Below are positions 162 through 13,184 of a stretch of DNA of 61,253 nucleotides, piece after piece. The position numbers and the translations under genes were made by a program. This stretch comes from Chloroflexota bacterium (lineage in GTDB: Bacteria; Chloroflexota; UBA6077; JACCZL01). Location: positions 1-61,253 of the forward strand of contig JADZEM010000090.1 of the NCBI GenBank assembly GCA_020850535.1, read 5' to 3'. How positions within the stretch are numbered: position 1 is the stretch's first letter; each line of letters starts with the position of its first letter. The notes beneath the pieces are model-generated. The model saw only the letters and a list, made by a program, of their open reading frames with translations. It did no database searches and was not told where the DNA came from.

Positions 162-2141
162 TCAGGCCACCGGGCGACGCCAGAGCGTGCCGCCAAGGCC
201 CAGCGCGTAGGCCACCAGTTCCCCGCTCGGGAGCGCGAGCACGCGCAACCCCGTCACCAGCGGCGTCCGGATGCCCGCGTCCCACGCCTCGAACGTCTCG
301 CCGCCGTCCCGCGAAAGGTATGGCGTGCCGGTCGCGGCTGCCAGCACCAGACGGTCGCGGCGCGCCGACGGCGACAGCGCGAGGCTCGTGACCGTCTCCG
401 ACGGCGCACCGATGCGAGCCTCCTGCCAGAGCGGACGCGTCTCGCCGCGCCGTCGCTCGGCGCTCTGCGACAGCGGCCGGCCGACGTGCCCGGGTCGTCC
501 GGCCAGCACCGCGTACGGCCCGTGGCCCGGCGCCGGCACGGCGATGGGCATCACGGCGGCCCGCGGTCCCGGCCACCAGCGCGCCCAGGTCCGCCCCCGA
601 TTCGCCGAGCGCCAGAGATCGACGCCGGCCAGGACTCGCGAGCCGTCGGCCTCGGTCAGGTAGTCGCGGACGCCGACGTAGAGCGTGCCGTCCTGACCGA
701 ACGCGGGCGACGGCGCAACCGACACGATCTCCGCCCCGGCGAACGGCAGCGGGAGCGCCTTCCAGCGCTCGCCGGCGTCCTCCGAGAGCAGCAGACAGCC
801 GACGCCGGCCGCAACCAGCGTCGTCGGCGCACTGCTGAGGTCGCCGACGGCTGCCAGCGCGGTCGGCCGGGCGTCGGCCGGCAGCTCCACGGCAGCCAGA
901 TCGACGCGCTGCCAGCCGGCCTCGATCCGGTCGCTCCAGTACAGCCCGTCCTCGAAGGTTGCCAGCACGGCCGGACGTCCGCCGGCCCGCCGCACGAACG
1001 CCAGAGACGTGGCCGCCAGCGCCGTCAGGCCGCCGGCGCCGCCCTTCCAGGTTCGCCCGGCATCGTGGGAGACCACGACGCCAGCGTCGAGCATCGCCAC
1101 GCCCAGCAGCGGCTCGTCGCCGAACGCCATCGTGGCGTCCAGGGCCACCGTCGCGCGGCCAGCCAGCCCGACGTTGGCAGGCGTCCAGCGACCACCGCCC
1201 GAGTCGAGACGCACCGCCCCCTGATCGACCGTACCGGCCACGGCTGCGCCACCTGTGGTCGACACGAGGCCGAGGATCGGGCCGAGGTCCGCGCCGTCGA
1301 GCGTCCAGGTTGCGCCGCCGTCCGTCGAGCGCGCCACGCCCGCCGCCGTCCCGACCAGGATCGTCCGTCCGTCCGTCCCAAACGCGATGCTGGTCACGGA
1401 CGGCTCGGGAAAGCTGTCTACCGCGTCCCAGGTCTGGCCGCCATCGTCGGAGCGGAACAGCCCGTCAGCCTCGGTGCCGGCCAGCACGAGCGCGTCGTCC
1501 TCGAAGGCTGGCGAGACCCCGATGGCCTGCACGGCTGGTGCATCCGGTCCCAACTCGACCAGCCGCCACGCCCGCGCGCCGTTCCGCGAGCGAAACAGGC
1601 CGCTGATCGTGCCGGCAAACGCCGTCCGATCCCGCCCGAACGCGGGCGAGAGAGCGACCGCCAACACGGTCAGGTCGAGCAGGCCGGCGTTCGCGCCGAT
1701 CCAGCTCAGGCCGCCGTCCTCCGAGCGCAGGAGGCCGTCTGTCTCGGTGCCGGCCAGCACGGTCACGTCGGCAGCCGACGGATCGGCGGTCACGGCGAGA
1801 GCCTGCACCTTGCTGCCCGTCAGCACCTGCCGCCAGGACCGGCCGCCGTCCGTCGAACGGTGCAGGCCGCTTCCCGCCCCCAGCAGGAGCGACGTGCCCA
1901 TAGCGTCAGCCGGAAGGCACGCCAGCGCGTCGGCAATGGTGTCAGGGGCCAGCGACAGCCACGCCCAGGTCTGGCCGCCGTCCTCGGAGCCGTGCAGGCC
2001 GGCCGGCGTCGCGGCATAGATCCGCTGGCCGCCCCCCACGACGCCCGACGCCAGTGCCAGCACGGTTCCGCCGGACCACTCGGTCACCAGCTCCCACGGA
2101 CGGGCGTTCGTCGGGTCACTCCCGCTGTCAGAGGCGGCCAC
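162..2141 (-). CDS. Cytosolic Asp-box (BNR) beta-propeller protein
   Basis: The 659-residue product consists almost wholly of Asp-box repeats (S/T-x-D-x-G-x-x-W). About eleven are readable, including SEDGGQTW, STDGGRSW, SEDGGLSW, SDDGGQTW, STDGGATW, SHDAGRTW, SEDAGERW and SRDGGETF. Such repeats form the beta-propellers of sialidases and of VPS10/sortilin and Ycf48-type proteins. No catalytic sialidase Arg triad is evident. There is no signal peptide or membrane segment, so the protein is probably cytosolic and binding rather than catalytic. Its ATG lies inside the 3' end of the upstream GroEL-like gene (14-bp overlap), which implies translational coupling and a shared role. The substrate or partner is unknown. 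The fold is well supported; the function is not. Confidence 0.85.
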   Translation of the reverse strand: MAASDSGSDPTNARPWELVTEWSGGTVLALASGVVGGGQRIYAATPAGLHGSEDGGQTWAWLSLAPDTIADALACLPADAMGTSLLLGAGSGLHRSTDGGRSWRQVLTGSKVQALAVTADPSAADVTVLAGTETDGLLRSEDGGLSWIGANAGLLDLTVLAVALSPAFGRDRTAFAGTISGLFRSRNGARAWRLVELGPDAPAVQAIGVSPAFEDDALVLAGTEADGLFRSDDGGQTWDAVDSFPEPSVTSIAFGTDGRTILVGTAAGVARSTDGGATWTLDGADLGPILGLVSTTGGAAVAGTVDQGAVRLDSGGGRWTPANVGLAGRATVALDATMAFGDEPLLGVAMLDAGVVVSHDAGRTWKGGAGGLTALAATSLAFVRRAGGRPAVLATFEDGLYWSDRIEAGWQRVDLAAVELPADARPTALAAVGDLSSAPTTLVAAGVGCLLLSEDAGERWKALPLPFAGAEIVSVAPSPAFGQDGTLYVGVRDYLTEADGSRVLAGVDLWRSANRGRTWARWWPGPRAAVMPIAVPAPGHGPYAVLAGRPGHVGRPLSQSAERRRGETRPLWQEARIGAPSETVTSLALSPSARRDRLVLAAATGTPYLSRDGGETFEAWDAGIRTPLVTGLRVLALPSGELVAYALGLGGTLWRRPVA

Positions 2142-3804
2142 GCCACTCCCTCCGTATCCGCCGCAGCGGGTCTTTCCGTCGAATGACCACCTCAGCGGTC
2201 AGGGCGGTCGCCGCCGTGCTGACGGCGGCTTCCAGGGCCGTCCGCGTCACCCCGAGCGGATCGACCAGCCCGGCCGCACGCGCGTCGACCCACGCCCCGC
2301 TCAGCACGTCGTAGGCCGCCCGCTCAGGCCGCTGCCCGCCTCCCGCCACGATGGCCCGGCCGTCGAGGCCGGCGTTCCGGGCGATGACCTCGGCCGGCGC
2401 GGCCAGCGCCCGCGCCAGCAGCCGCAGGCCCGCCGCATAGTCGTCGCGTCCCGGCTGCCCGTCCAGCGCCCGGGCAGCCGTCAGCAGCGCGCCGCCGCCG
2501 CCGGCCACGACCCCGGATTCCAGCGCTGCCCGACAACTGGTCACCGCCGCCTCGACGCGCTGCTTCAACAGCTCCTGCGCCCGTTTCGTCGGGCCGCCGA
2601 CCTGGATGCTCGCGCCAGTTCCCGTGAGCTTGGCGATGCGCTCTCGGAGCTTGCTCCTGAGGTACGGATCGTCGCGGTGGGCTGTCAGCTCGCCGCGCAC
2701 GTCGGTGACGCGCTTACGGATCGCCGCGCGGTCGCCCCGCCCCCCGATGACGCCGAACGCCTGCCGCGTGGCCCAGACCTGCCGCGCCTGCCCCAGATCG
2801 GCCAGCGTCACCCGCTCCAGGCGATCCCCCAGCTCGCGGTGCAGGCACCGCCCGCCCGTCGCCGCCGCCAGATCGTCGAGGATGCCGATGCGCTGCGCTC
2901 CGATGCTCGGCGCCTGGATCGCCAGCGCGCCGGCCAGCGTGCCGCGCTCGCGGTTCGCCAGCAGCATCGCCACGACGGCATGGTGCACGTCCGGGGCGAT
3001 GATGACCAGCCGCGGCACATCCGCTGCCACGCACGCCTCGAGCGCAGGCAGCAGCTGCTCGGGCCGCTCGACGTTGAAATCACAGAGGAGGATGCGCGGC
3101 TCGACGAGGCGGCCGGTCGTCTCGCCGGGCGGCAGCAGGTGAGCCGAGCTGTACCCGCCCTCCCAGCGCACGCCATCCACGTACTGGTGGAGGGTCTCGG
3201 CGCCGTGGGCGTTCTCGACCATGACGATGCCGTCCGGCCCGACGGTATCGAGGATCTCGCCGACGATCTCGGCCAGCGCGGGGTCGTCCAGGGTGTGCCG
3301 TGCCACCCGCGCGATCTCGTCCGGGTGGTCGAGCTTCCAGGCGCTCATCTCCAGCGCGTCGAGCACGGTCCGCAGGCCATCGCGCAGGCCCGCGCAGAGC
3401 CCCACTGGCTCGACGCCGCCGGCCAGCAGGCGCGCGCCATCGTGGAGGAGCGCACGGGTGAGCACCGCCGTCGTCGCGCCGCCGTCCCCAACCTCGTCGG
3501 CAACACGCAGCACGAGATCGCGCAGCATCATCGCGCCGGCGTTTTCGAACGGATCGGCCAGCTCGATGGTCCGCCGCGCGATAGTGGCGGCGGTATCGAG
3601 GATCTCCGGCGGCTCCTGGCCGAGGATCGGGGCGATGGCGACGGTCCGCGCCACCGGCCCGAGGGTCGGGGCGATCAGCCCGGCCAGTTGGTCTGCGCCC
3701 CGCAACAACGCTGAACGAGCCGCCAACCCGTAGCGGATTGGCGACTCGGGATCAGTGGCCTCGTCATCGCTGACTGGCGTCTGCTTCGTGTCGATTGGCG
3801 TCAC
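2128..3804 (-). CDS. Divergent GroEL-like chaperonin paralog, probably ATPase-deficient
   Basis: The 558-residue product aligns with Hsp60/GroEL over its whole length. It has TLGP (47-50), FENAGAMM (86-93), GDGGATT (106-112, against GDGTTT), an apical domain from about 195 to 375 and VVAGGGG (432-438, against VVAGGG). The position equivalent to E. coli Asp398 (KARVED-A-LHATRAA) is Ala419 here (KQRVEAAV). The D398A change in GroEL is known to block ATP hydrolysis. The apical groove Y-x-x-x-YF becomes GYSSAHL, and the Gly-Gly-Met tail is replaced by an Arg-rich end. This is therefore unlikely to be the housekeeping GroEL, and no groES is adjacent. The gene overlaps the Asp-box propeller gene by 14 bp, suggesting a dedicated scaffold or holdase for that partner. 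The family call is firm; the role is inferred. Confidence 0.88.
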   Translation of the reverse strand: MTPIDTKQTPVSDDEATDPESPIRYGLAARSALLRGADQLAGLIAPTLGPVARTVAIAPILGQEPPEILDTAATIARRTIELADPFENAGAMMLRDLVLRVADEVGDGGATTAVLTRALLHDGARLLAGGVEPVGLCAGLRDGLRTVLDALEMSAWKLDHPDEIARVARHTLDDPALAEIVGEILDTVGPDGIVMVENAHGAETLHQYVDGVRWEGGYSSAHLLPPGETTGRLVEPRILLCDFNVERPEQLLPALEACVAADVPRLVIIAPDVHHAVVAMLLANRERGTLAGALAIQAPSIGAQRIGILDDLAAATGGRCLHRELGDRLERVTLADLGQARQVWATRQAFGVIGGRGDRAAIRKRVTDVRGELTAHRDDPYLRSKLRERIAKLTGTGASIQVGGPTKRAQELLKQRVEAAVTSCRAALESGVVAGGGGALLTAARALDGQPGRDDYAAGLRLLARALAAPAEVIARNAGLDGRAIVAGGGQRPERAAYDVLSGAWVDARAAGLVDPLGVTRTALEAAVSTAATALTAEVVIRRKDPLRRIRREWRGRL

Positions 3805-3874: not shown

Positions 3875-5041
3875 CTAGCTGTAGACGGCGTGCCCGACCT
3901 GGTGCTTCTTGATGTAGTCCCAGTCGAGCTGCACCCCAAGGCCCGGGCCGGTCGGCACCGAGACGTGGCCGTTCTTGTCGATGGCGTCCAGCTCGTCGGA
4001 GTAGCCGCAGGCGTAGATCGGCGGCTTGGTCCGCTTCAGCTTCGGGTGGACCAGCCCGAGCTCGTAGTAGTTGGTGTTGCGGATCGCCGCCATGCAGTGC
4101 CGGTGGTGCGGCCCGGGGGCGTGGACCTCGACGTCCAGGCCGAAGCCCTCCGCCGAGTGCGCGATCTTCATCAGGCCGGTGATGCCAGCATCGTAGTCGG
4201 CGTCGGCGCGGACGTAGTCGGTGCCGTCCGCCACGATGTTGTCGACGTGCAGCTCGTGGCCCCGGATGTGCTCGCCGATCAGGATCGGAGTCTTGATGAT
4301 CTGCCGCAGCTTGCGGTGCCCGAACGCCGAGATGCCGCCGTCCTTGTACGGGTCTTCCAGCCAGAAGAAGCGGGCCTCGTCGCAGGCCAGCCCGACCTTC
4401 ACGGTCTCGCCCCAGGTGTTGTACTCGCAGGCCGGGTCGATCATCAGATCCATCTCGTCGCCCACGGCCTTGCGGGTCGCCAGGACGGTCTGGACTTCTC
4501 GCTGGATCGGCCCGGTGCCCCAGCCGTGGATCTTGAAGGCCGGGTAGCCCATCTCCTTGCACTGCACTGCGAACTCGGCGAACTGCTCGGGCGTCGTCAG
4601 GCCGCCGTTCTCGTCGCCGTGGTAGGTGGAGGCGTAGGCCGGCAGGGTCTTGCGGAACCCGCCCAGCAGCTCGGAGATCGGCGCGTCGTAGAGCTTGCCG
4701 GCGATGTCCCACAGCGCGATGTCAATCGACCCGATGCCCATGCGGTCGTCCTTCCGCATGGCCCGCTTCAGATCGTTGTAGATCTTCTCGCGCTCGAGGG
4801 CGTTCTTGCCGATCAGGTAGCCGGCCACCCGCCCGACCTGGGCGTAGGTGGACGACATGCCGCCGGCGTACTCGCCGCTGACCCCGGCGTCGGTGTCGAT
4901 CTTGATGACGTAGCCGGTGTTGTGGGCCGTGCTTCCAGCTTCCCAGACGCCGTTGAAGCCATTGTAGTCGGTGCCCATGTCCTGCACGTCGTAGGCGTAC
5001 TGGAACACCTCGACACGGGTGATCTTCGGTTGACGAGCCAT
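3875..5041 (-). CDS. Mandelate racemase / muconate lactonizing enzyme family (enolase superfamily) dehydratase
   Basis: The 388-residue product has the capping domain and TIM barrel of the enolase superfamily. Visible active-site elements are K170-I-H172 on strand 2, metal ligands Asp202 (MIDPA), Glu229 (WLEDP) and Glu257 (GEH), and a likely general base at His307 (EVHAPGPHH). The pattern fits an acid-sugar dehydratase or racemase of the mandelate racemase group; the exact substrate cannot be read. The start at 5041 is chosen because GGGGAGGAGCGAGG precedes this ATG and homology begins at MARQPKITRVEV. A longer open frame upstream has no support. It is the last gene of the minus-strand block, 70 bp beyond the chaperonin start. 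Confidence 0.9.
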   Translation of the reverse strand: MARQPKITRVEVFQYAYDVQDMGTDYNGFNGVWEAGSTAHNTGYVIKIDTDAGVSGEYAGGMSSTYAQVGRVAGYLIGKNALEREKIYNDLKRAMRKDDRMGIGSIDIALWDIAGKLYDAPISELLGGFRKTLPAYASTYHGDENGGLTTPEQFAEFAVQCKEMGYPAFKIHGWGTGPIQREVQTVLATRKAVGDEMDLMIDPACEYNTWGETVKVGLACDEARFFWLEDPYKDGGISAFGHRKLRQIIKTPILIGEHIRGHELHVDNIVADGTDYVRADADYDAGITGLMKIAHSAEGFGLDVEVHAPGPHHRHCMAAIRNTNYYELGLVHPKLKRTKPPIYACGYSDELDAIDKNGHVSVPTGPGLGVQLDWDYIKKHQVGHAVYS

Positions 5042-5176
5042 CCTCGCTCCTCCCCGTCGCTCTGACCGAGTTGTGCCAACGTTGGCGCGGGGAGAGGGTA
5101 GCCGGTCCGGCCCCCAGCCGGTCCACCTTTGCGGCCTCAGCGGCCCGCCGGGTACCGAGACGCGCCGACAACCCTG

Positions 5177-5206
5177 GTGACGCCGGTCCTCACCCTGATC
5201 TATGCT
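5177..5206 (+). promoter_or_regulatory. Possible sigma70-type promoter for the 5232 gene
   Basis: GTGACG (5177-5182) and TATGCT (5201-5206) are spaced by 18 bases, 25 bases before the ATG at 5232. The match to the consensus is moderate, and the site lies in a divergent intergenic region. Confidence 0.3.
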
Positions 5207-5231
5207 GTGAGCAGAGGCGGGTGGGTTCACG

Positions 5232-5621
5232 ATGAGCATGGTCGATCCCGAAGCGACACAGCTCCTGCGGCGCGCGATCCAGCTTGGCAACGCTGGTCGG
5301 GCGACGGTGGCCGACCTGCGCCTCGCCGTCGAGCACCCGATCGCGTGGCAGCTGCCGCCGGCGCGCCTCCTGGGCGATGCGCCCCTGGCGCGGCTGCTGC
5401 GGCGGGCCATCGAGCTGGCACAGGCGCGCGGCGGCGACCTGGTCGGGCGGCAGGATCTGCTGTTGGCGCTCTACGAGGCCGAGGCGTCGCAGTTGGGGAT
5501 GAACCTGGACCGGCTGCGCTACGCCCGGGCGTACGTCCGGCGGGCCTACGCCGACGTGGCCCCGGCCGCGCGCAGCGTGTGCGAGCCGCTCGGCGTCGGG
5601 ACGAATGAGCCGCCCGCCTGA
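5232..5621 (+). CDS. Small protein resembling a Clp N-terminal repeat
   Basis: The 129-residue product is helical, with no signal peptide or membrane span. The stretch from LLRRAIELAQARGGDLVG to QDLLLALYE (about residues 55-82) resembles half of the Clp N-terminal (R) domain, whose usual form is A-x-x-x-A-x-x-x-G-x-x-x-[IV]-G-[TS]-E-H-[IL]-L-L-A-L. An earlier Leu/Arg-rich helix pair (residues 7-50) may be the first, more degenerate repeat. It could be a stand-alone Clp-N-like adaptor, but this is weak similarity read by eye. It stands alone between two minus-strand genes. ATG 5232 follows a GTG-rich leader without a strong Shine-Dalgarno sequence, so the start is only probable. Confidence 0.6.
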   Translation: MSMVDPEATQLLRRAIQLGNAGRATVADLRLAVEHPIAWQLPPARLLGDAPLARLLRRAIELAQARGGDLVGRQDLLLALYEAEASQLGMNLDRLRYARAYVRRAYADVAPAARSVCEPLGVGTNEPPA

Positions 5622-7642: not shown

Positions 7643-7764
7643 TTGTGCTACGCTTCCTACCGCGCGATCGGACGCCGGCTGCTGCCGTTCTTGAGGACGC
7701 AGCCTCCGTCCAGAGAATTCGTGGGGCCGCCGACGTCGCGGTTAGCGGCAGGGAGAAAAGTACA

Positions 7765-9255
7765 ATGTCCTCGACGATGAGTCGCCGCGCGATGCTTCGC
7801 GGCGCCGCCAGTCTGGTCGGCATGTTCAGCGCGACAGCCCTCCTCGCGGCATGCGGTGGCGCTCAGCCGGCCAGCAAGCCGGCCGAGACGAAGCCCGCCG
7901 AAACCAAGCCGGCAGAGAGCAAGCCGGCCGCACCGGCCGCACAGCCCGCTGCGACGGCCGCCCCGGCCAAGCCGGCAGAGGCCGCGAAGCCCGCGGAGGC
8001 GAAGCCGGCTGCTCAGGCTCCGGCGGCGACCAAGAAGATCGGCGGCACCATCCGTTTGCACGTCCGGACCGGTCCTGAAGAGGACACGCTGAAGGCGATG
8101 CTTCCGAAGTTCACCGAGGATACCGGCATCGAGGTGAAGGTCGAGTCGTTCCCGACCGAGGAGTACACGACCAAGATCCAGACGCTGATGGCTGGCGGCA
8201 CGGTCGGCGACGTGATGTGGGGCATCCAGCGCGTGACCCCGCGATTCGCCCGGAACAAGGTCATCTTGCAGCTTGACGACTTGATCGCCAAGGACAAGTA
8301 CGACATGTCTCTGTACTGGCCGGGCGCCGTCGAAGCCTGCAAGTACCAGGGCGGCATCTGGGCGGTGCCGTACAAGATCCACCCCGGTCCGGCCGCCATC
8401 TACTACAACGTCCAGCAGATGCAGGAAGCCGGCGTCACCATGCCGGAGAAGCAGTTCGCCACCTGGGACGACCTGAAGAAGGCCGCGAAGGCGGCCACCA
8501 AGGACGGCCGCTTCGGCCTTCAGTTGAACATCACCTCGGGTGGCGCGCTCAACACGCCGCAGCCGGTCACGATGTTCCTGCGTTCGTGGGGTACGGACCT
8601 GTACTCCGAGGACGGCAAGAAGTCCAACCTCAGCGATCCGAAGGCGAAGGAAGCCATTCGGTTCATGTACGACCTGATGCACACCGACAAGGTGGCGGTG
8701 ACCGGTCGCGACTTCTCGGCGAGCGCCATCGAGGATCTGATGGTCGCCCAGCGCGTCTCTCAGGTCATGGCCTCGTCGTCGACCAAGAGCATCATCACCA
8801 AGACCGGTGGCAAGTTCGATGTCAAGAACGCCATCGCACCTCCGGGGCCAGCCGGGATCGTCGGCACGCAGGCCATCGTGGACCACATCATTATCTCGGC
8901 GACCACGAAGGCTCCCGACGCGGCCTGGGAGCTGGCCAAGTTCATGACCAGCACCGAGTTCGGCGTGCGGCTCGGTGGCGGGACTGGTGGCACGGCGTCG
9001 GGGACCACCGGGGCCCAGATCAGCGTGTTCAACGACCCGCGCATCATGGCGAACCATCTTCACCCGATCTTCATCGATCTGGTGAAGATGGCGACGGCGC
9101 CGCGCTTCCCGGCTAACCTCCGCGAGGAGGAGCATGCCCAGGCGTTGCACCAGACGCTGATGCCGCTCTGGTTGGGCGAGCGAAAGCCGGACGACGCGTT
9201 CTTCGACGAGCTCACGAAGACGTGCCAGGCAGTGATCGATCAGCCGATCGCCTGA
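7765..9255 (+). CDS. Sugar ABC transporter substrate-binding lipoprotein
   Basis: The 496-residue extracytoplasmic binding protein is of the SBP_bac_1 (MalE/UgpB-like) type. The N terminus MSRRAMLRGAAS carries a twin arginine, a hydrophobic stretch and a lipobox LLAAC with Cys30, so it is probably a Tat-exported lipoprotein. Residues about 33-90 are a low-complexity Lys-Pro-Ala-Glu-Thr linker, typical of Chloroflexota binding proteins. The mature domain starts near GGTIRLHVRTG. The start is taken at ATG 7765 after GGGAGAAAAG; an upstream in-frame extension is not signal-like. Two permease genes follow directly. The sugar cannot be assigned from sequence. Confidence 0.93.
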   Translation: MSSTMSRRAMLRGAASLVGMFSATALLAACGGAQPASKPAETKPAETKPAESKPAAPAAQPAATAAPAKPAEAAKPAEAKPAAQAPAATKKIGGTIRLHVRTGPEEDTLKAMLPKFTEDTGIEVKVESFPTEEYTTKIQTLMAGGTVGDVMWGIQRVTPRFARNKVILQLDDLIAKDKYDMSLYWPGAVEACKYQGGIWAVPYKIHPGPAAIYYNVQQMQEAGVTMPEKQFATWDDLKKAAKAATKDGRFGLQLNITSGGALNTPQPVTMFLRSWGTDLYSEDGKKSNLSDPKAKEAIRFMYDLMHTDKVAVTGRDFSASAIEDLMVAQRVSQVMASSSTKSIITKTGGKFDVKNAIAPPGPAGIVGTQAIVDHIIISATTKAPDAAWELAKFMTSTEFGVRLGGGTGGTASGTTGAQISVFNDPRIMANHLHPIFIDLVKMATAPRFPANLREEEHAQALHQTLMPLWLGERKPDDAFFDELTKTCQAVIDQPIA

Positions 9256-9300
9256 CCTACGACAAGTAGCCGTGACCGCCAACAGACTGGACGAACAGCT

Positions 9301-10266
9301 GTGAGTACCAGCTCAGCCACCCTCGCCGCGCCACCAGCGCGGCGAGGGTCTTCTCCGCTCGCACGACGCAAGGCGATTCAGGGCTACCTGTACATTTCGC
9401 CGTTTCTGCTCGGCTTCTTGATTTTCACGGCGTATCCGCTGATCACGTCGTTCTACCTCAGCTTCACCAGCTACAACATCCTCAGCGCACCCTCGTTCAT
9501 CGGGCTCGAGAACTACTCCCGTGCGTTCACGCAGGATGCTCAGTTCTGGGCCTCGCTCGGCCGCACCGGCCGCTACGCGTTGATGGTGGTGCCGCTGGGC
9601 ATCATCTGCTCGCTGCTGGCGGCGATGCTGCTCAACCAGGGCTTCACCGGCACGGCGATCTTCCGGACGATCTTCTTCTTGCCCTCGATCACACCGGTCA
9701 TCGCCTCGGTCCTGATCTGGCTCTGGCTGCTCCAGCCGTCCATCGGCGTGGTGAACTATCTGCTCAGCCTGATCGGTGTTCCTGGCCCGCCGTGGGTTCA
9801 GAGCACCACCTGGGCGGTCCCATCGCTGGTGATCCTGTCCCTCTGGAACACGGCTGGCGGCAGCCGCATGATCGTCTTCCTGGCCGGGCTCCAGGGCGTC
9901 CCCCAGGAGCTGTACGAGGCGTCCCACATCGACGGGGCGAACGCCTGGCAGCGCTTCTGGAACGTGACCGTTCCGATGATCTCGCCGACGATCTTCTTCA
10001 ACCTCGTGATCTCGGTGATCGGCGCGCTGTCGGTCTTCTCGGTGGCCTACATCGGCACCCAGGGCGGCCCCGCCTACGCCACGTACTTCTACGTCTACCA
10101 CCTCTACATCAGCGCGTTCCAGTTCAACCTGATGGGCTACGCCTCGGCGTTGGCCTGGATCTTCCTGGTGATCGTCCTGGCGCTCACCGTGGTGCAGTTC
10201 ACGATGCAGAAGCGTTGGGTCTTCTACGCGGGCGACGACCGATCTGAGGAAAAAGACCATGGCTGA
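9301..10266 (+). CDS. Sugar ABC transporter permease (MalF/UgpA type)
   Basis: The 321-residue inner-membrane protein has six predicted membrane spans, beginning with YLYISPFLLGFLIFTAYPLI. The EAA loop that docks the ATPase reads EASHIDGANAWQRFWNVTVP, the usual form for the CUT1 sugar importer family. It starts with GTG 9301, 45 bp after the binding protein. Its last codons overlap the next permease by 8 bp, so the three genes form one operon. No ATPase is encoded here; CUT1 systems often share an MsmX-type ATPase encoded elsewhere. Confidence 0.93.
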   Translation: MSTSSATLAAPPARRGSSPLARRKAIQGYLYISPFLLGFLIFTAYPLITSFYLSFTSYNILSAPSFIGLENYSRAFTQDAQFWASLGRTGRYALMVVPLGIICSLLAAMLLNQGFTGTAIFRTIFFLPSITPVIASVLIWLWLLQPSIGVVNYLLSLIGVPGPPWVQSTTWAVPSLVILSLWNTAGGSRMIVFLAGLQGVPQELYEASHIDGANAWQRFWNVTVPMISPTIFFNLVISVIGALSVFSVAYIGTQGGPAYATYFYVYHLYISAFQFNLMGYASALAWIFLVIVLALTVVQFTMQKRWVFYAGDDRSEEKDHG

Positions 10267-11158
10267 TCAGACGGCGTCGCTCCCACGCACGGTAGATGTT
10301 CGCGCCGGCTCAACCTCCGCGGCGCGGACGCGTTCGCGACTCGTGTTCTACGCCGTTGCGATCGTCCTGACGTTGTTCTTCGTTGGCCCGTTCTACTGGA
10401 CAGTCGCGTCGTCGTTGAAGACGCCAGCCGAGATCGCGACGTTTCCGCCAGTGTTCGTGCCCGCGCAGTTGCGCTTCGACAACTACGCACGCGCCTGGAC
10501 CAAGGTCCCGTTCCTGGACTTCTACACCAACTCGCTGATCGTGACCGTCCTGGCAGTGTCCGGGCAGGTGCTCTCAGCGTGCATGGTGGCGTACGGGTTC
10601 GCGCGATTCCAGTTCCCGTTCAGAAACACCCTGTTCATGCTGGTCATCGCCACCCTGATCGTCCCCTGGGAGGTGACGATCATCCCGAGCTTCCTGCTCT
10701 ACAAGTGGCTCGGGTGGCTCGACACGCTCAAGCCATTGATCGTGCCAAGCTGGTTTGGCGGCTCGCCGCTGTACATCTTCCTCTTGCGGCAGTTCTTCAT
10801 GAGCATCCCGCGCGATCTCGATGAGGCTGCTGAGATGGATGGCGCCAACTCGTTCCGCATCCTGTGGCAGATCCTGGTGCCGTTGTGCGCCCCCGCGCTC
10901 ACGACCGTCGCGATCTTCTCGTTCCTCCAGCACTGGAACGAGTTCATCCAGCCGCTGATCTTCTTGAACAGCGAGACGAACTTCACGGTGTCGCTCGGCC
11001 TGCGGCTGTTCCAGACCGCGCCCGCCGATCCCGGCGAACCGAAGGAACACTTGCTGATGGCGGCGGCAGTCATCGCGTCGGCCCCATGCATCGCGCTGTT
11101 CTTCGCGGCGCAGCGCTTCTTCGTGCGCGGCATCGTGATGTCGGGCATCAAGGGCTGA
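10259..11158 (+). CDS. Sugar ABC transporter permease (MalG/UgpE type)
   Basis: The 299-residue second permease subunit has an N-terminal span (VFYAVAIVLTLFFVGPFYW), five further spans and the EAA loop DEAAEMDGANSFRILWQILV. It pairs with the upstream permease to form the heterodimeric channel of a CUT1 importer. The ATG overlaps the upstream stop region by 8 bp, a translational-coupling arrangement. The C terminus RFFVRGIVMSGIKG is the normal family ending, so the gene is complete. Confidence 0.94.
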   Translation: MADQTASLPRTVDVRAGSTSAARTRSRLVFYAVAIVLTLFFVGPFYWTVASSLKTPAEIATFPPVFVPAQLRFDNYARAWTKVPFLDFYTNSLIVTVLAVSGQVLSACMVAYGFARFQFPFRNTLFMLVIATLIVPWEVTIIPSFLLYKWLGWLDTLKPLIVPSWFGGSPLYIFLLRQFFMSIPRDLDEAAEMDGANSFRILWQILVPLCAPALTTVAIFSFLQHWNEFIQPLIFLNSETNFTVSLGLRLFQTAPADPGEPKEHLLMAAAVIASAPCIALFFAAQRFFVRGIVMSGIKG

Positions 11159-12041: not shown

Positions 12042-13184
12042 GTGAAGATCACCAGTGTCGAGACGTTCATCGCCGGGCTTGACCGGCGCAATTACCTGTT
12101 CGTGCGCGTCCAGACGGACGAGGGCATCCACGGCATCGGCGAGGCGTACTCGTGCGGCCCCGACGATGCCACCGCCGCTGTCGTCGCCGACTTCGAGACC
12201 TGGCTCATCGGGAAAGACCCGCGCGACATCGAGGCGCTGTGGCACCTGATGTACGCTGGCTCGCGGTTCCCCGGCGGCTCGATCCTCAACTCGGCGCTCA
12301 GCGGCATCGAGCACGCGCTCTGGGACATCCTGGGCAAGTCGCTCAACGTGCCGGTCTGGCGGCTGCTCGGCGGGCAGTTCCGCGGCCGCATCCGGGTCTA
12401 CCAGTCGCCGCACGGCGCGACACCCGAAGCGCTGGCTGCCGACGCCGTCCGCCTCATCGAGCGGTACGGCTACTCGGCGCTGAAGATCGGGCCGCAGCCG
12501 CCGAACTGGACCAGCATGCCGTACAGCACGGTGGTCCGCGAGTCGGCGAAGCGGCTGGAAGCGGTCCGCAAGGCCGTTGGCGAGGACGTCGAGATCGGCG
12601 TGGACGCTCACGCCCGCATCTTCGAGCCGGTCCGCGCCCTGGAGATGGCCGAAGCGTTGAAACCGTACCGCCCGTTCTTCTTCGAGGAGGCGTTGCGGCC
12701 GGAGAACATCGACGCCATGGCCGACGTGAAGGCGCGCAGCCCGATCCCGATCGCCACCGGCGAGATGCTCTACACCAAGTTCCAGTTCCGCGAGCTGCTG
12801 CGGAAGCGTGGCGCGGACATCATCCAGCCGGATGTGTGCGTGGCTGGCGGCCTGCTGGAGCTGAAGAAGATCGCGGCGCTGGCCGAGGCCGAGTACGTCA
12901 CCGTCGCGCCGCACAACCCGATGGGGCCGGTCGCCACGGCGGTGAACGTCCACTTCGCCGTCTCCACGCCGAACTTCCTGATTCTGGAGTACAGCCCGGA
13001 CGACGTGGGCAAGCGGCGCGAGCTGCTGGTGGAGCCGCTCAAGGTGACGGATGGCTACATCGACGTGCCAACCGCCCCGGGCTTCGGCGTCGAGCTGAAT
13101 CTCGACGCCTTCGAGAAGTACCCGTCGGCCCGCTGGCACCGTCCGTTCCCCGTCAACACGGACGGCTCGCTCGGGTTTCAGTAG
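12042..13184 (+). CDS. Galactonate dehydratase-like enolase-superfamily enzyme
   Basis: The 380-residue product shows the D-galactonate dehydratase (DgoD) residue pattern: Lys148, Asp188 with His190 (GVDAH), Glu215 (FFEEAL), Glu241 (TGEML) and His291 (APHNPMGP). The spacings between these residues nearly reproduce those of DgoD (D183, H185, E209, E235, H285). It would dehydrate an aldonic acid to a 2-keto-3-deoxy acid using Mg2+. The substrate is inferred, and other acid sugars remain possible. Translation starts at GTG 12042. A D-2-hydroxyacid dehydrogenase follows 167 bp downstream on the same strand. Confidence 0.92.
   Translation: MKITSVETFIAGLDRRNYLFVRVQTDEGIHGIGEAYSCGPDDATAAVVADFETWLIGKDPRDIEALWHLMYAGSRFPGGSILNSALSGIEHALWDILGKSLNVPVWRLLGGQFRGRIRVYQSPHGATPEALAADAVRLIERYGYSALKIGPQPPNWTSMPYSTVVRESAKRLEAVRKAVGEDVEIGVDAHARIFEPVRALEMAEALKPYRPFFFEEALRPENIDAMADVKARSPIPIATGEMLYTKFQFRELLRKRGADIIQPDVCVAGGLLELKKIAALAEAEYVTVAPHNPMGPVATAVNVHFAVSTPNFLILEYSPDDVGKRRELLVEPLKVTDGYIDVPTAPGFGVELNLDAFEKYPSARWHRPFPVNTDGSLGFQ

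Follow-up and report, generated by a model that had tools for sequence, protein, structure and literature searches.

Near one end of a 61,253-nt stretch of Chloroflexota DNA (contig C90 of the host genome; hereafter the window, to whose full length all positions refer), two genes on the minus strand encode a divergent, GroEL-like group I chaperonin and a tandem beta-propeller protein. The chaperonin gene (2128..3804) starts with a GTG at 3804, ends with a stop codon at 2128-2130 and encodes 558 amino acids, of which residues 40-544 match the Pfam family Cpn60_TCP1 (PF00118) with 144.6 bits (cut-off 34.3, E 5e-42). Among NCBIfam models, group I ones score well above those of group II, with 406.7 bits for PRK12849 GroEL and 46.5 bits for thermosome. 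Its AlphaFold2 (AF2) model shows a complete chaperonin fold with confidence (predicted local distance difference test, pLDDT, 90.7), and Foldseek has matched this model to GroEL/Hsp60 structures with template-modelling (TM) scores of up to 0.84 to GroEL. The model is nearer to GroES-bound subunits (TM 0.79-0.84) than to most apo GroELs (~0.60), a closed state which, lacking a canonical GroEL as control, has not been counted as evidence. The protein is ~34% identical to GroEL and 34% identical to the canonical GroEL of its own host. It belongs to the fold family of group I chaperonins but stands outside the GroEL orthologs, as its score of 369.7 bits in the TIGR02348 equivalog model lies below the cut-off of 582.1, the catalytic residues are gone and groES does not adjoin. 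The NCBIfam models GroEL2 and GroEL3_Chlamy give 91.7 and 139.3 bits, far under their cut-off of 600.

The residues of the active site have been placed by HMMER alignments to solved GroEL structures and by a MAFFT alignment with E. coli GroEL, which agree, and the codons have been checked. A preliminary description, made from the letters of the window, had equated Ala419 with the catalytic D398 of GroEL, and this has been confirmed by both alignments: the GCG codon (2548..2550, minus strand, as are all residues given here) lies in LKQRVEAA, against KARVEDA in GroEL. The second catalytic Asp is lost as well, as Thr71 (3592..3594) stands at the position of D52 and is preceded by Asp70, which occupies that of K51. 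In Hsp60, the D50/D397 dyad is catalytic (PMC12557358). The GDGTTT motif of GroEL (86-91) reads GDGGAT (3472..3489), again as first described, with T89/T90 replaced by Gly and Ala, and the Mg-binding D87 is kept in it as Asp107 (3484-3486). Also kept are the TLGP nucleotide-binding loop (GroEL 30-33; 3655..3666), the GGG nucleotide-binding motif (GroEL 414-416; 2494..2502) and the ribose contact D495, here Asp515 (2260..2262). The apical substrate groove, likewise reported as altered, does carry six substitutions (Y203H, F204L, I230P, L259V, V263L and V264A), but these are mild and Y199, L234 and L237 are retained; because the groove is still mostly hydrophobic, it may yet bind GroES or a client. 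The inter-ring residues and several inter-domain salt-bridge partners differ from GroEL.

The loss of the two aspartates is a property of a whole clade. The family has been gathered by searching relatives and named genome records (L, C and G numbers denote the loci, contigs and genomes compared); its members are Chloroflexota, including metagenome-assembled genomes (MAGs) of Thermomicrobiales, and calls of presence or absence are based on draft MAGs. In a maximum-likelihood tree built with the catalytic columns left out, the window sits in a 13-row Chloroflexota clade with a support of 100/100. Position 52 is S, T, N, H or R and position 398 is A, S, G or R throughout this clade, so that both aspartates are absent in 13/13 members, against canonical GroELs with Asp at 52, 87 and 398 in 27/27. 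Asp-keeping orthologs had been named beforehand as a mark of sequencing error; with no D398 or D52 in any clade member, such an error is dismissed, and the proposal of a natural paralog without its hydrolytic Asp is supported more strongly than it was made, as D52 is missing as well and the whole clade shares the loss. More distant relatives in the same paralog family retain Asp. The sister group of the clade has R398 and retains D52, a further clade (L069, L075, L080, L094 and the Thermoflexus-type L078 and L081) combines E398 with N87, L095/L096 carry E398, and L130/L134 of lineage f54 carry Q398 with D52 retained, as part of the same chaperonin-propeller pair (L130:5728-9242; L134:5233-8795). 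In a wider clade, residue 398 is A, S, G, R, E or Q; the basal L020, L021 and L068 retain all three aspartates. Loss of D398 takes two changes on this first, smaller tree and one on a larger tree that has also been made, and repeated independent loss is therefore not claimed; D52 was lost once, and later. As natural loss of D398 has been surveyed within this Chloroflexota family, statements on its rarity are limited to that scope. Plasmids were also searched, with relatives in cultured organisms of known name as the aim, and the best among the matches listed are ordinary GroELs with less than 35% identity. Contig JAJPGT010000088 (L058, Centralia_MAG_106) is labelled Proteobacteria; the same stretch occurs in a genome placed in the window's order (G008), and the label is probably wrong. 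In a Herpetosiphonaceae MAG (L072:9088-11581), a chaperonin with D398R and D87E begins ~17 nt past a same-strand permease gene of a sugar ATP-binding cassette (ABC) transporter.

The pattern of conservation points to selective loss of hydrolysis with the pocket retained, and not to general decay, because the clade without D52 and D398 keeps 9/12 nucleotide-contact positions (Fisher p = 0.0024) and 35 of the 104 positions that are invariant in the 27 canonical GroELs. Ratios of non-synonymous to synonymous substitution (dN/dS) of 0.03-0.16 in close family pairs correspond to purifying selection; L093/L099, a pair inside the clade that has S52/S398 in both members, gives 0.16. The value of 0.47 for the window against L058 is not reliable, as the DNA is GC-rich and the identity is down to 54%.

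The downstream gene (162..2141, minus strand) encodes 659 amino acids, and its GTG start, with a GGAGG ahead of it, overlaps the chaperonin gene by 14 nt. Its product is predicted with good confidence to be a tandem beta-propeller with BNR/Asp-box repeats of the Sortilin-Vps10 / PSII_BNR-like kind, according to Pfam, where PSII_BNR and Sortilin-Vps10 are both above cut-off, to its AF2 model (pLDDT 88.3; the list of strands gives ~14 blades when counted by eye) and to Foldseek, which ranks the double 7-bladed propellers of GH74 best and also finds tandem WD proteins. The BNR/Asp-box propeller is shared with Ycf48/HCF136, sortilin and GH74 proteins; identity to GH74 structures is only 14-18%, and the alignment shows no evident signal peptide.

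Among the aligned divergent chaperonins, 23 have a same-strand propeller gene downstream (L130, L134 and, by inspection, L098 included), often overlapping or a few nt apart; they come from more than one Chloroflexota lineage. The pair also occurs at L055 and L133, where the chaperonin is cut by the contig end, and in Thermomicrobiales YX1bin8 (L090:9815-13584) the chaperonin is in fragments and the downstream propeller open reading frame (ORF) is intact. Among the canonical groEL loci examined, none has a propeller beside it. In the f11 genomes (G019, G024, G027 and G028) the divergent chaperonin is not adjacent to a propeller, and one strongly matching orthologous propeller is encoded elsewhere. 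Since the basal members with all three aspartates already have an adjoining propeller, the pairing appears to be older than the loss of hydrolysis; against this order, the tree requires five changes of linkage and gives weak support to its basal branching. At three loci with a divergent, Asp-intact chaperonin (L064, L065 and L067), a conserved protein of ~211 aa (MFGxKDSIKEFEQM...) and no propeller is encoded ~0.5-0.9 kb downstream; at L065 and L067 an MreB/Hsp70-like gene also follows the chaperonin.

The host genome (G000; 7.65 Mb, 227 contigs) contains six chaperonin matches. Canonical are a groES-groEL pair on C166 and two pieces at contig ends (C227, beside groES, and C199); the other three, on C90 (the window), C122 and C143, are divergent paralogs without D52 and D398, all of them among the 13 rows of the clade. 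None of these three has groES beside it, the groES genes of the host being found only on C166 and C227 with canonical groELs. As to HrcA/CIRCE control, the controlling inverted repeat of chaperone expression (CIRCE) is absent from the window at up to 3 mismatches, and exact repeats of the CIRCE core have been found only in loci of ordinary GroEL.

Taken together, we consider it about an even chance (roughly 0.5) that the window encodes a group I chaperonin dedicated to its downstream propeller, which would bind nucleotide and hydrolyse it extremely slowly or not at all. The absence of ATPase activity, the assembly of rings, the interaction with the propeller, co-transcription and any use of GroES from the housekeeping operon are all predictions from sequence. 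GroEL-like rings would most likely form, and Mg-nucleotide would be bound via the TLGP/D87/GGG/D495 pocket, which is retained. As D52 and D398 are missing, one nucleotide-bound conformation may persist for a very long time; the chaperonin would then hold or encase the propeller just synthesised, with both proteins translated off one mRNA, and would not cycle over many clients. GroEL D398A retains 3% of the ATPase and normal ATP binding and still encapsulates and folds proteins (PMC3326522), so that a chaperonin without hydrolysis can still serve as a cage or holdase of long life. Seven-bladed propellers are known chaperonin clients in eukaryotes (PMC8544692, PMC6599039), where CCT binds them and is needed for Gbeta folding (PMC8544692). 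The static cage, scaffold or holdase of the preliminary description is thus partly supported: the loss of the hydrolytic Asp is real, the role drawn from it is putative, and a chaperonin that no longer hydrolyses may well go on caging. The best pointer to the partner is the conservation of the neighbouring propeller gene, which that description did not cover.

Several points weigh against a dedicated, nucleotide-locked chaperonin. At 659 aa, the propeller is near the usual upper limit for the GroEL cavity and may exceed it. Adjacency of genes does not prove a client or a complex, and the propeller is not an obligate neighbour, as the host paralogs on C122 and C143 lack both aspartates and have no propeller next to them. 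The phosphate-contacting T89/T90 are changed too, whereby nucleotide affinity may be low, and Asp70 at the K51 position might partly stand in for D52. Rows without Asp make up 20/23 of the propeller-linked and 7/42 of the unlinked ones; as only 2-5 phylogenetically independent pairs underlie these counts, propeller linkage and loss of D398 are statistically inseparable on the tree and a correlation is not claimed.

More tentatively, and with the odds somewhat against it, the dedicated chaperonin may be one instance of a two-gene system widespread in Chloroflexota. In such a system, a tandem beta-propeller would have acquired a group I chaperonin as its private partner, and the chaperonin would then have given up hydrolysis in steps, with D398 lost before D52 or D87. 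The product would be a nucleotide-locked particle with a single client, which is either held or built in permanently. If true, such a system would be a bacterial counterpart of CCT-WD40 folding without an ATPase cycle.

Among the alternatives, a static ring scaffold of which the propeller is a permanent component (cap, adaptor or cargo of a stable particle) is possible, at something like half the credence given to the dedicated chaperonin. The conserved, overlapping gene pair and the loss of hydrolytic residues with fold and nucleotide site retained would suit it, propellers are common interaction platforms, and the pairing of the Asp-intact basal members would fit an ATPase that became dispensable later. 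Some paralogs are unlinked to a propeller, however, the stable complex is itself a prediction, and the apical groove is largely hydrophobic as in a substrate binder. It is unlikely that the paralogs co-assemble with housekeeping GroEL, or with each other, into mixed rings whose ATPase and allostery they modulate: hetero-oligomeric chaperonins do exist (chloroplast Cpn60, CCT) and the host has three D52/D398-less paralogs next to its canonical groEL, but the window protein is only 34% identical to the latter, differs from GroEL in its inter-ring and salt-bridge residues, and would leave the propeller gene pair unexplained. Similarly doubtful is a slow but cycling chaperonin with residual ATPase, in which Asp70 partly takes the role of D52/D398. 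Asp at position 51 is found in 10/13 clade members, and in other subclades E or Q stands at 398, where Glu could act as a base; yet D51 is equally frequent in family members with D52 and D398, and so not compensatory, and L093, L098 and L099 are without acids at 51, 52 and 398 alike. Lastly, a degenerate gene or a sequencing error is very improbable, as the fragmented chaperonin ORF of the relative L090 is set against a full-length ORF, the same losses in 13 clade members, a retained pocket and the low dN/dS of close family pairs.

Among known systems, the dedicated chaperonin would probably work most like the engineered slow-hydrolysis mutants of GroEL, D398A and D52A/D398A (football complex 3WVL), in which the same catalytic positions are lost and the ATP-binding residues kept. 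Unlike these mutants, it is natural, fixed in a clade and ~34% identical to GroEL, its T89/T90 and salt bridges are altered, and it is linked to a propeller gene instead of groES. Of natural proteins in which the hydrolysis motif is eroded, the most similar are the MKKS/BBS proteins, whose partners in BBSome assembly include beta-propeller proteins. MKKS, BBS10 and BBS12 are vertebrate group II paralogs in which the ATP-binding dipeptide is kept and the hydrolysis motif eroded (PMC2846930); they differ in being of group II, eukaryotic and of another lineage, and in having no genome-adjacent pair. CCT/TRiC with its WD40 propellers is likewise a chaperonin with a beta-propeller client (PMC8544692, PMC6599039), but is a group II hetero-oligomer with an active ATPase and many clients. 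Divergent group I chaperonins beside a housekeeping GroEL are also seen in chlamydial GroEL2/GroEL3 and other bacterial groEL paralogs (Myxococcus, mycobacteria, cyanobacteria), and those of Chlamydiae are reported to differ in ATP-binding/hydrolysis regions (PMC1892554); a propeller partner is not reported for them in the literature examined. The open-access literature searched has yielded neither a bacterial chaperonin clade that naturally lacks D52 and D398 nor a chaperonin-propeller gene pair, and no paper joining GroEL, D398A and a paralog or a pseudo-chaperonin.

The part that hydrolysis plays in the chaperonin cycle is commonly studied with D398A and D52A/D398A GroEL. In the present case, the same changes have been fixed naturally in a bacterial clade, with sister lineages that keep three aspartates, have lost one or have lost two. 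Whether a chaperonin must hydrolyse ATP to be useful can thus be tested directly on proteins from nature, for which a candidate client is at hand. The gene pair further suggests that group I chaperonins can specialise on a single beta-propeller, for which eukaryotic CCT has so far been the main example.

The pair is flanked in the window by a CUT1-type sugar ABC transporter (7645-11158) and two mandelate-racemase/enolase-superfamily-like genes (3875-5410 and 12042-13184). CUT1 permease or binding-protein genes lie near ~10/28 loci; SBP_bac_1 genes are so common (56 in the 7.65-Mb host genome, 95 in G024) that this proximity is about background, and the transporter has been rejected as a partner. 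A further arrangement of chaperonin genes has been observed in a Chloroflexota genome with seven chaperonin matches (L164 and G209:C13:46589-51679), where an ORF of 1135 aa contains two tandem chaperonin domains and is adjoined by a third chaperonin, the two ORFs read having Asn or Lys at 398.

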